Origin: Natrialba sp. SSL1
GTDB taxonomy: Archaea; Halobacteriota; Halobacteria; Halobacteriales; Natrialbaceae
NCBI RefSeq assembly: GCF_001861355.1
Contig: NZ_MASN01000060.1
Location: 248,001-312,000 of the forward strand
Reading direction: 5' to 3'
DNA length: 64,000 bases
Part shown: piece after piece, positions 32,918 to 40,880 of the stretch
Position numbering within the stretch: the first letter of the stretch is position 1
Layout: every line of letters starts with the position of its first letter
Notes under the pieces: generated by a model
The model's database searches: none
The model's input: the letters and a program-made list of their open reading frames with translations, nothing else
Told to the model about the DNA's origin: nothing
Made by a program: the position numbers and the translations under genes

Positions 32918-33059
32918 TCCCTGCCCAGTCACAGGACTCGGTTGGCAGTAGTCGTTGCTTTCTGCGTGTGTGCACGCAGCAGTAGGTGCGTTCAGTCGGA
33001 AGTGGTTCCGTATGGACAGTGACAATCTAAACGAAAAGCAGCGCGAGTTCCCCGCCCTT

Positions 33060-33103
33060 CCGAAAACCTACGGTTTTCGGCTTTCGCAAATCTCCGATTT
33101 GCG
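33060..33103. repeat. Double-hairpin module at the IS left end
   Basis: CCGAAAACC-tac-GGTTTTCGG (9-bp stem, 33060-33080) is followed after 4 nt by CGCAAATC-tcc-GATTTGCG (8-bp stem, 33085-33103). The module is inserted between the two arms of the GC palindrome of the element. A module of the same design lies inside tnpA. Confidence 0.7.
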
Positions 33104-33131
33104 TCAACACCATGGGCGGGGGTGAAGCGCG

Positions 33132-33590
33132 TCACTCCGGCGCGTGTTCCGTCTCTTCGATATACCGTTCAACCACTTCCTCCGACACCGCACCTGTCGT
33201 TCCCACGTAGTATCCGACCTTCCAGAATCCACCGCCCCAGAAATTCGACTCTCGAATCTCGGGATACCGCTCCAGCAAGTGCTTTCCAGAGTACGACTTG
33301 AATTGCCGAGCGATGTCTGCTGGACTGTGCTTCGGGTCTGTTTGTACGAACAGGTGTATGTGGTCGTCTGCAATCTCCAACGCCAAAATCTCGTGTCCGA
33401 AGTGGTCAGCGGTCTCACCAAATAACTTCCGCACGTCCTTTTGCACCACACCGAGAACAGGATGGCGGTACTGAGCGGGATCAAAGATCCCGCGAGGTAC
33501 GCAAAGCTTCGCTTTGCTTGACTTTGGACACCACACGAAGTGATACTTGCAGGAACTAACCGAATGCGCATGAATGCGGTACTCCTCCAT
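33132..33590 (-). CDS. tnpA: IS200/IS605 transposase TnpA (Y1, HUH)
   Basis: The single-strand transposase nicks and joins the ends of the element. Of 152 residues, the HUH pair is in DDHIHLFVQTD and the catalytic tyrosine in GYYVGTTG, near the C-terminus. After WCPK a 17-residue stretch from SSKAKLC to DPAQ precedes YRHPVL; I judge it an in-frame insertion of 51 nt because related proteins read WCPKYR directly. The 51 nt form two hairpins (33475-33517). The insertion lies before the HUH site, so activity might survive. ATG 33590 is chosen; 33605 is also in frame. Confidence 0.85.
   Translation of the reverse strand: MEEYRIHAHSVSSCKYHFVWCPKSSKAKLCVPRGIFDPAQYRHPVLGVVQKDVRKLFGETADHFGHEILALEIADDHIHLFVQTDPKHSPADIARQFKSYSGKHLLERYPEIRESNFWGGGFWKVGYYVGTTGAVSEEVVERYIEETEHAPE
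33471..33521. repeat. 51-bp double-hairpin module inserted in tnpA
   Basis: GCGGGATC-aaa-GATCCCGC (33475-33493) and GCAAAGC-ttc-GCTTTGC (33501-33517) are separated by 7 nt. The module keeps the tnpA frame (17 codons). Design and spacing match the module at the left end of the element. Confidence 0.7.
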
Positions 33591-33602
33591 CCTGAATCCC
33601 CA

Positions 33603-33611
33603 CATTTATGA
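33603..33611 (+). promoter_or_regulatory. TATA box of tnpB
   Basis: CATTTATGA is centred about 28 nt before the tnpB ATG at 33635, giving a nearly leaderless transcript. It lies in the 44-bp gap shared with tnpA. Confidence 0.5.
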
Positions 33612-33634
33612 TTGGTTAGAACGATTGTCAAAGT

Positions 33635-34939
33635 ATGGGTCAGGAAGCCACGAAGACAATTCAGACGCGCCTTCACATAGCGTCTGGTGAACGGTCGTGG
33701 CTTCACGACGCCCGCCTCGCGTCACGTGAGATATTCAACGACACCATCCGTCTCAAACGACAGGGATACAATCGCACCGAGATACAGAGAGAGGTTGACC
33801 GCGACGACTTCTTGCGAAACAACAAGTGCGCGGTCGTCGGCAAAGCCCTCCAAACGTGGGGGTCCTACCAATCGCTCAAAGAGTGGTGGGAGAACCAAGA
33901 CGACCCTAACGGAGGGAAGCCGACGCCGCCGAGTACGGACAAATCTGGTGCATACCCGCTCGTGATGGCTCACACGGAAGGTTATCGTCTCACTGTGGAC
34001 GACAACACGAACCGCGTCCAAGTTCGAATCAGTCCGAAACCCTACAAGAAGGTGAAAGGCCACCTGCGCGGTGAGCCGGATGCGATGGATGACCTGCGAG
34101 ACGCGATCACGTCGGATGAGGTGGATGTGGGGCAGGCTGAACTCTTGTACCGCGATGGCGTGTACTACCTACACGTCACGGTCACACGCGAGTTCGACGT
34201 GCCCGAACCCGACACCGCTGAGACTGTGGTCGGCGTAGACATCAACGAGCGTAACGTCGCTCTCACCGCCTTTGACCGCGAGACGATGCGGACGAAGGGC
34301 ACACTCGTCCTCGACTACGGACGAGTCAAACAGGAACGCCAACGCTACCACACCATAACTACCCGCTGTCAGGAACACGGCAAGACGAGCATCCACCGGA
34401 AACTCGGTGACAAGGAGGTGCGGTTCACCGAGTGGGTGCTTCATCGTCTCTCCCGTGCTGTCGTGGAGTTCGCAGCGCAGTTCTCGGACCCGGTCATCGT
34501 GTTCGAGGATATGAGCGGCATCCGCCACGAAATGCAGTACGGGACGTATATGAACCGTCGATTGCACAAACTGCCGTTTCACAAGTTCGAGACGTTCGTC
34601 TCGTACAAGGCGACATGGCGGGAGGTTCCTACGGACACGGTTGATGCCTACTACAACTCGAAGACGTGTTCGTGCTGTGGTGAGCGTGGGTATCGGCAAG
34701 GACGGCGGTTCCGCTGTACGAACGACGAGTGTAATCTGGCGCAAGATCACGCTGACCGGAATGCGTCGGTGAACATCGCGTGGCGCGAAAAGGCGAAGCT
34801 CGACGGTAATACGACGAATTACCGGACTCACAAAACCCAACCGCAGGTGCGGGTGGTGCGTCTGTCCGGGTCGGGGCGCGTAAGCCGCCCAACCTCATCC
34901 CGTTCCCTCGCGGAACAGGGAGTGCTAGCGCACAGCTGA
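33635..34939 (+). CDS. tnpB: RNA-guided nuclease TnpB of the IS200/IS605 element
   Basis: TnpB is a programmable nuclease that cuts the empty donor site under the guidance of a right-end (omega) RNA and so helps the element to persist. The 434-residue protein has all RuvC residues: the first Asp in VVGVDINERNVALTAF (near 200), Glu in VIVFEDMSG (near 292) and the last Asp in DHADRNASVNIAW. The zinc finger is C-x2-C...C-x4-C in TCSCCGERGYRQGRRFRCTN. No truncation or frameshift is seen. The guide RNA would start within its 3' end and run to the right hairpin. Confidence 0.92.
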   Translation: MGQEATKTIQTRLHIASGERSWLHDARLASREIFNDTIRLKRQGYNRTEIQREVDRDDFLRNNKCAVVGKALQTWGSYQSLKEWWENQDDPNGGKPTPPSTDKSGAYPLVMAHTEGYRLTVDDNTNRVQVRISPKPYKKVKGHLRGEPDAMDDLRDAITSDEVDVGQAELLYRDGVYYLHVTVTREFDVPEPDTAETVVGVDINERNVALTAFDRETMRTKGTLVLDYGRVKQERQRYHTITTRCQEHGKTSIHRKLGDKEVRFTEWVLHRLSRAVVEFAAQFSDPVIVFEDMSGIRHEMQYGTYMNRRLHKLPFHKFETFVSYKATWREVPTDTVDAYYNSKTCSCCGERGYRQGRRFRCTNDECNLAQDHADRNASVNIAWREKAKLDGNTTNYRTHKTQPQVRVVRLSGSGRVSRPTSSRSLAEQGVLAHS

Positions 34940-34985
34940 GGGAACCTAGAAAAGCCTCGGGCCACCGTGCCCGAGGCTGTTTACG
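34800..34985 (+). ncRNA. Predicted omega (reRNA) guide RNA of TnpB
   Basis: In this family the guide RNA overlaps the 3' end of tnpB and ends at the right end of the element. Here it should end at or just past the hairpin AGCCTCGGGC/GCCCGAGGCT (34953-34978). Sense overlapping transcripts of such genes are known in haloarchaea. Ends are estimates. Confidence 0.5.
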
Positions 34986-35000
34986 TTCCTTCACACAGAT

Positions 35001-35381
35001 ATGACGACTATGCATGTGCGATCGTGGAGCTTCACCAATCTTTCAGGATTGACAACCCCTCCTAGTATTCTTTCAGGCGAGACATCTACCGACGTACGTT
35101 GGCTGGAGCCCTCTAACGAAATCGTCGTTGAGGGCGTCTTCCCAACGGGGGACGAAACGCATCAAGTCGTCTTGGAAAATATGATCATAGAAGATGGCGA
35201 AATAACGATCATAATCTGTATCAACAAAGTAGATTCTGAAATTGTCTCGGATGTTGGCCGTAATGTTCCCTATCAAGTCACGCTCGAATTGATGTCTGGG
35301 TTCCCTGAGCGCCTGACTATCATCCACAAAAACGAGCGATCTGAAGAGGTCCACTCAAAAACAGTCGCTAACCCTGGGTGA
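35001..35381 (+). CDS. Haloarchaeal lipoprotein-like domain, possibly 5'-truncated
   Basis: The 126-residue protein is beta-rich and lower in GC than its neighbours. The pattern EIVVEGVFPTGDETHQVVLE, DGEITIIICINKV, NVPYQVTLELMSGFPERLTII resembles the C-terminal domain of small haloarchaeal lipoproteins, but there is no signal peptide or lipobox. The IS element ends about 20 nt upstream, so its insertion may have removed the 5' part. It could also be a cytosolic variant. No function known. Confidence 0.5.
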   Translation: MTTMHVRSWSFTNLSGLTTPPSILSGETSTDVRWLEPSNEIVVEGVFPTGDETHQVVLENMIIEDGEITIIICINKVDSEIVSDVGRNVPYQVTLELMSGFPERLTIIHKNERSEEVHSKTVANPG

Positions 35382-40172: not shown

Positions 40173-40880
40173 ATGAAGACCGAGGGCGGGAGCGACACGG
40201 CGAAGCGACACGCAGGCGAGCGCGCGGCCGACGCCGTCGAGGACGGCACCGTCGTCGGCCTCGGCACCGGCTCGACGGCCGCCTACGCGATCGAAGCCAT
40301 CGGACAGGCCGTCGCCGACGGCCTCGACGTTCGGGCCATCCCCACGTCGTTCCAGTCGCGCCAGTTGGCACTCGAGTACGACATTCCACTGACGACCCTC
40401 GATGCGGTCGACGGCGTGGATCTCGCGATCGACGGCGCGGATCAGGTGGTCGACGATCCCGAGTCGGCCGCACACGGCGCGCTCATCAAAGGCGGCGGCG
40501 GTGCACACGCGCGCGAAAAACTTGTCGACGCGGCCGCAGACCGCTTTTTGGTCGTCGCCGATCCGTCGAAGCTCACTGCCGAACTCGATCGCTCGGTTCC
40601 ACTCGAAGTGCTACCAGACGCTCACACCGTCGTCGCCGAGCGCGTTCGCGAACTGGACGGTGAGCCAACGCTTCGCGACGCCGAGCACAAGGACGGCCCG
40701 GTCGTCACCGACAACGGAAATCTGCTTTTCGACTGCGAGTTCGGTTCGATCGAGGAACCAGACGCGCTCGCGACCACACTCGCTTCGATTCCAGGCGTCG
40801 TCGAACACGGCCTGTTCGTCGGACTGGCCGACGAGACGTACGTCGGCACGGCCGACGGTGTGGACGTTCGGACGTACTGA
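40173..40880 (+). CDS. rpiA: Ribose-5-phosphate isomerase A
   Basis: This enzyme interconverts ribose 5-phosphate and ribulose 5-phosphate. The 235-residue protein has the RpiA motifs VVGLGTGSTA (phosphate binding), IDGADQV (catalytic Asp) and LIKGGGGAHAREKLVD (catalytic Glu/Lys). Length is standard. ATG 40173 begins the family N-terminus; a longer upstream frame is rejected. A hairpin follows the stop codon. Confidence 0.94.
   Translation: MKTEGGSDTAKRHAGERAADAVEDGTVVGLGTGSTAAYAIEAIGQAVADGLDVRAIPTSFQSRQLALEYDIPLTTLDAVDGVDLAIDGADQVVDDPESAAHGALIKGGGGAHAREKLVDAAADRFLVVADPSKLTAELDRSVPLEVLPDAHTVVAERVRELDGEPTLRDAEHKDGPVVTDNGNLLFDCEFGSIEEPDALATTLASIPGVVEHGLFVGLADETYVGTADGVDVRTY

Follow-up and report, generated by a model that had tools for sequence, protein, structure and literature searches.

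Short paired-hairpin inserts in an IS200/IS605-type element and their superfamily in haloarchaea

Why does a single IS200/IS605-type element carry two pairs of short perfect hairpins, one at its left end and the other inside its transposase gene? The element lies at positions 33026–34984 of the window, that is, the whole 64-kb stretch of DNA analysed here, and was delimited by its similarity to copies elsewhere with unrelated flanks; comparison with copies in other genomes placed its edges at TCTAAACG (start, 33026) and GTTTAC (end, 34984). It contains two divergent genes. tnpA (33132–33605, minus strand) is an open reading frame for a Y1 (HUH) transposase of 157 amino acids (Pfam Y1_Tnp, E 3e-34), 17 of which are insert-derived, and tnpB (33635–34939, plus strand) encodes the Cas12f-like TNB domain (Pfam PF07282) and is free of modules in the window copy. 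The right-end hairpin, GCCTCGGGC(CACCGT)GCCCGAGGC (34954–34977, plus strand), is intact and lies within a match to the Rfam family sot2652 (sense overlapping transcript) at 34818–35003 (E 5e-38). This match spans the last part of tnpB together with the right IS end, and likely represents the TnpB guide-RNA region. It was the sole Rfam match; neither module matched any Rfam family.

The stem of the left-end hairpin (33050–33121, plus strand), formed by CCCCGCCC (33050–33057) and GGGCGGGG (33114–33121), is split by the first module; in other copies the palindrome without the insert reads CCCCGCCCCACCGTGGGCGGGG. This module is a 50-bp insert (type C; 33058–33107, plus strand) with the arrangement TT-hairpin-CTTT-hairpin-TCAA. 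Its hairpin pair at 33060–33103, CCGAAAACC(tac)GGTTTTCGG-CTTT-CGCAAATC(tcc)GATTTGCG, is composed of hairpin 1 with a 9-bp stem and the loop TAC (33060–33080, plus strand) and hairpin 2 with an 8-bp stem and the loop TCC (33085–33103, plus strand). The second module, a 51-bp insert in tnpA (type B; 33471–33521, minus strand), has the arrangement TCAA-hairpin-GTACCTC-hairpin-TCAG. On the plus strand, 33475–33517 reads GCGGGATC(aaa)GATCCCGC-GAGGTAC-GCAAAGC(ttc)GCTTTGC, with its two hairpins at 33475–33493 and 33501–33517. The module is located between the AAG and TAC codons (WCPK/YR), is in frame and open, and adds SSKAKLCVPRGIFDPAQ; the peptide expected from its read-through is SSKAKLCVPRGI. Sequence inspection and the hairpin scan thus confirmed what the original prediction had described, namely a module pair splitting the left-end palindrome and a 51-bp in-frame module after WCPK. 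The GCAAA...TTTGC motif that it noted in both second hairpins is real, but is typical of the whole superfamily described below and indicates no special link between the two modules. Perfect-hairpin pairs occurred three times in the 64-kb window and were absent from five dinucleotide shuffles. The third pair (40816–40857) is GC-rich and of another design than the modules, and is probably a chance occurrence in coding sequence.

Comparison with closely related IS copies revealed how the two modules came to be there, and empty sites defined the exact limits of both inserts. The same genome contains two more copies of the IS (in contigs C30 and C1), approximately 87% identical to the window IS; both lack the 51-bp tnpA module and carry a left-end module with different loops. 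One of these two sisters, L002/L037, contains a further, distinct double hairpin of 54 bp in its tnpB, after the position equivalent to 34147. A survey of 125 genomes from the same family showed close copies of the IS with neither, either or both of the window modules. The left-end module, an insertion of exactly 50 bp with a microhomology of 0, is present in about ten IS copies and precisely absent from others (L011, L013, L014, L015 and L017–L019). The proposed alignment with close copies therefore yielded clean absence of either module, and the 17 residues, whose presence in all related tnpA genes was to have marked them as ancestral, are missing from the two same-genome sisters and from most close relatives. 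Since close copies cleanly lack either module, both window modules are, as judged from these alignments, insertions and not ancestral parts of the IS. The opposite reading, in which they are ancestral and were lost from some copies, would account for the mixture of presence and absence among relatives, but the losses would need base precision, independently for each module, and foreign modules nested within modules and the same module in unrelated tnpA genes and at intergenic sites would be left unexplained; we regard it as scarcely credible. Filled and empty copies support the earlier proposal that the modules are small inserts that target, or hitchhike in, IS605-type elements, and we consider it very probable that they are mobile. 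The proposal drew on palindrome-associated non-autonomous elements related to IS200/IS605, which exist in haloarchaea; the modules themselves are not such palindrome-associated transposable elements (PATEs).

The retrieved loci contained 284 unique modules, and for 100 of these, at 66 distinct sites, a clean empty counterpart was found. A few filled/empty pairs that show partial arrays or extended microhomology are artefacts of the alignment. In most cases the empty site belongs to another copy of the same IS and is not an orthologous chromosomal locus, so that precise loss is possible in individual cases. At the 66 sites, both hairpins of a module were gained or lost jointly. Type A modules are exact 54-bp insertions with a microhomology of 0 and with neither duplication nor loss of the target, and their insertion point is mostly G|C (15 of 22 sites). 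The absence of a target-site duplication is at odds with a MITE of a DDE transposon. In several IS families the left-end hairpin is a recurrent target, as are three positions within tnpA and a number of positions within tnpB; a single target, CCTCGGGG|CTTGACCC, is occupied by different module designs. Hairpin loops as a general target rule were rejected: insertion sites within hairpins whose stem was 7 or longer were enriched (12/60 vs 71/1080 controls), but the enrichment was modest and came mostly from left-end sites. The modules also insert into each other, with type A within a hairpin of type B (L051) and type B at the centre of type A (L065 vs L066); type A modules with a nested type B form composites of 105–107 bp. 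Hairpin arrays reach up to seven or eight hairpins, and many composites are neither in nor beside tnpA or tnpB. Several loci (L173, L175, L186, L187 and G000:C30:70728–70915) contain 4–8 perfect hairpins in arrays outside tnpA/tnpB, made of type A and type B units and other hairpins; these arrays are possibly a larger composite element of their own.

These site data also bear on whether the modules still transpose. They might instead descend from a few origins and spread by hitchhiking with the IS and by gene conversion between IS copies, as the many copies at shared fixed positions within individual IS families would suggest, together with the left-end-module IS copies at several unrelated genomic sites. 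In contrast, the many distinct sites, the nesting, the different designs at one target and the copies outside tnpA/tnpB argue for movement of the modules themselves. Furthermore, the type B module is nearly identical across tnpA genes whose proteins share only 35–43% identity, which indicates recent, site-specific arrival in these strongly diverged genes. Spread by hitchhiking alone is therefore, in our estimation, improbable.

The window modules belong to a class-wide superfamily of paired-hairpin elements of 45–58 bp. Type A has the design TSGTY-hairpin-TSATSA-hairpin-RACSA and is typically 54 bp, and type B, which includes the module in the window tnpA, has the design TCAA-hairpin-GKACMTC-hairpin-TYAG and is 49–53 bp; type C denotes the left-end module of 50 bp and type D a 54-bp module in tnpB. 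Further designs of 45–46, 51 and 55–57 bp were recognised in a search that was seeded with IS copies and with models derived from these and that required near-perfect stems, so other designs are under-sampled. A 45-bp design with a 3-nt spacer between the two hairpins occurs at L356:13801–13841 (Haloquadratum J07HQW1) and L298:3593–3633; its insertion point in tnpA separates WC from PK and is two codons off the window site.

Covariance models built from five type A and eight type B sequences gave matches in 121 and 111, respectively, of the 125 family genomes. At the level of the class, the type A model matched 266 of 292 haloarchaeal genomes, representing 73 of 77 genera, and in a sample of the phylum it matched 40 of 43 haloarchaea vs 5 of approximately 204 other Halobacteriota at E <= 1e-6. 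When 84,980 species were scanned with a motif, 50 of the 58 haloarchaeal matches lay at double hairpins vs 1 of the 22 other matches inspected. The type A matches in the five non-haloarchaeal Halobacteriota (G367, G376, G383, G472 and G474) are weak (E 1e-7 to 2e-11) and, in four of these genomes, multiple; they are possibly distant relatives or chance palindromes.

What is conserved in these elements is the pairing. In 57 exact 54-mers, 98.7% of the stem positions were Watson-Crick paired vs 79% with shuffled partners, and the stems contained 154 double changes with G-T wobble almost absent. The loops are variable and are swapped with their own reverse complements above chance: among differing pairs of left-end hairpin 1 loops, 42 of 114 were reverse-complementary against 9.9 expected, a value reached in 0 of 2000 shuffles. 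When folded as single-stranded DNA, the modules formed two hairpins (z -3.1 to -5.5), and four of the five folded cases had a closing outer stem, the tnpA module being the exception; an outer inverted repeat of 5–6 bp is found in type A and none in types B and C. Stem covariation without wobble, together with loop inversion, indicates that the conserved object is a palindrome at the DNA level, whose stems stay perfect and which is occasionally inverted. In quasipalindrome mutagenesis, template switching or cruciform inversion can perfect stems and flip palindromes, and either process inside the palindromes may have generated the perfect stems and inverted loops of the modules.

The effect of the modules on their hosts differs between the two locations. 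IS copies with the left-end module occur at many unrelated genomic sites, three of them in this genome, indicating that this module does not abolish movement of the IS. Within tnpA and tnpB, 41 unique modules were analysed: 24 are in frame and contain a stop, 7 shift the frame and 10, including that of the window, are open. Open modules would be read through, and a stop or a frameshift would disable the gene. As a separate observation, a 49-bp type B module occupies one position near the start of an IS1341-type tnpB in several genomes (L057–L060, L141, L145, L146 and L152); it adds a TGA and shifts the frame, and long open frames follow downstream.

Alternatively, the modules in tnpA and tnpB might be mobile micro-introns or bypass elements that are removed from RNA or skipped by the ribosome, which would make a stop or frameshift harmless. 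The preponderance of stop-bearing and frame-breaking modules invites this explanation, as does the median pairwise dN/dS, which was 0.13 in 16 full-length tnpA genes with the module stop as the only lesion, similar to the 0.16 of 31 module-free copies. The stems of stop-bearing site-ii modules are common to several genera, and the tree of stop-bearing tnpA suggests that some modules are old. For a control, however, Y1 genes interrupted by internal stops were collected from 40 genomes; nearly all their stops lay outside modules, and these often replaced a Trp codon in a gene that was intact apart from it. Single-stop tnpA copies are thus common, probably being mobilised in trans, and the low dN/dS can be explained by recent inactivation. 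The covariation without G-U pairs also favours DNA rather than RNA as the conserved form. After this control, ribosome bypass or splicing of the modules is quite unlikely. Several haloarchaeal Y1 genes (L391–L396 and L404) are full-length but for one or two internal TAG or TGA codons, often at Trp, and TAA is rare; this suggests either that recent inactivation is frequent, with the copies being mobilised in trans, or that readthrough is tolerated. In Haloquadratum, nearly all IS200-type transposases were reported to be disrupted (PMC3119063).

We favour, as probably correct, a model in which the modules are non-autonomous, non-coding two-hairpin elements that move as single-stranded DNA in folded form, possibly through the action in trans of an IS200/IS605 TnpA. 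In this model the two hairpins, with the short outer stem in type A, would be recognised by a nuclease acting in trans, and modules located inside an IS would also ride along with it. Among candidate nucleases we rank first the Y1 (HUH) transposases of IS200/IS605 elements, since these enzymes act on single-stranded hairpins without leaving a duplication. We give mobilisation by a Y1 transposase slightly less than even chances. The number of Y1 genes per genome was higher in 20 module-rich genomes (mean 2.85) than in 20 module-free genomes (mean 0.70; p 2e-4), a comparison of gene counts that is confounded, as IS elements are also targets of the modules. At E <= 1e-10, no Y1 gene was found in the module-rich genomes G133 and G146, and a search for a parental IS whose ends match the modules found none. 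The type A target also extends little beyond G|C, in contrast to the tetranucleotide typical of IS200/IS605. A bolder version of the model, in which the modules are a separate, self-contained class of structure-defined micro-transposons that inherit a folded single-strand shape, with two hairpins whose sequence is largely free, rather than a sequence, home to conserved sites within transposase genes and are tolerated there through skipping during expression, appears to us highly doubtful.

Our study sets the exact boundaries, empty sites and anatomy of a family of very small elements present in most haloarchaea. How such repeats move, which was called "enigmatic" for one group in 2011, becomes directly testable with short oligonucleotides. 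It has been proposed that small repeats inactivate IS605 elements; the dispersed IS copies with a left-end module imply that such an insert need not be a defence. For genome annotation, the modules appear as odd in-frame insertions or seeming pseudogenes in tnpA and tnpB.

The literature search for comparable elements yielded one description, the SMR-A repeats of Haloquadratum walsbyi (HqIRS42, HqIRS43 and HqIRS55), which are approximately 110 bp long, have terminal inverted repeats, cause no target duplication and contain no transposase; their targets are palindromes near the ends of PATEs and IS605-type transposons, and their mobilisation was described as "enigmatic" (PMC3119063). The left-end module and the CCTCGGGG|CTTGACCC site are similarly located in palindromes close to the ends of IS605-type elements, and no target duplication accompanies the insertion of type A and left-end modules; the tnpA module occupies a coding site instead. 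We therefore considered that the modules are SMR-A, or direct members of that group, attacking such palindromes. Targets, absent target duplication, absent transposase and unexplained mobilisation are all alike, the nested composites of types A and B approach the size of SMR-A, and type A modules are present in Haloquadratum J07HQW1. In contrast, the window modules measure 50 and 51 bp, only nested composites come near the published length, and type B had no match in J07HQW1. As for the terminal inverted repeats prominent in SMR-A, a short outer repeat is present in type A and absent from types B and C. Repeats of approximately 85–130 bp in 400 kb of J07HQW1 have no hairpin pairs, and double hairpins form a separate set there. 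On balance, membership in SMR-A is unlikely, though it deserves more weight than the other alternatives. The repeats without hairpin pairs in J07HQW1 (G342:C1:195438–195561 and similar ones) are candidates for the published SMR-A. The published description of SMR-A does not include double-hairpin anatomy, units of 45–58 bp, unit nesting, coding-site targets or a class-wide range.

No known system agrees with the modules in every respect compared, and each of several others shares part of their properties. PATEs and IS200/IS605 elements reduced to approximately 52 bp, for which mobility has been suggested (PMC3119063), are IS605-derived and consist of terminal sequence only; they resemble the modules in their length of about 50 bp, their palindrome and the lack of target duplication, but keep the end sequence of the parental IS. 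A minimal IS200/IS605 element likewise has a hairpin near each end and makes no target duplication; it requires a fixed tetra- or pentanucleotide 5' of the insertion, whereas type A uses mainly G|C. The palindromic elements of Rickettsia (RPE; PMC10969869, PMC3733652) also lie in frame inside protein genes, and the window tnpA, open with its 17 extra residues, is RPE-like, yet 24 of the 41 gene modules hold an in-frame stop; moreover, RPE are approximately 150 bp and occupy unrelated host genes, whereas the modules are approximately 50 bp and reside in transposase genes. Mitochondrial double-hairpin or repetitive hairpin elements (PMC2800124) are short and mobile, have conserved stems and variable loops and occur also within genes, but they are organellar, differ in sequence and have no link to IS605. 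The tags of GTAG/CGTC-tagged REPs (PMC3733652) are absent from the modules, whose ends are TCGTC/TCGTT (type A) and TCAA/CTGA (type B). REPINs, the REP doublets moved by RAYT (PMC3116915), differ from the modules, which prefer IS elements and each other and have perfect stems and inverted loops; a comparison of Y1 gene counts brought up no cognate RAYT for the modules. In REPINs, too, two hairpins constitute one small mobile unit that can fold as single-stranded DNA, contains no transposase itself and is linked to Y1 tyrosine transposases; they are the best functional analogue of the modules.
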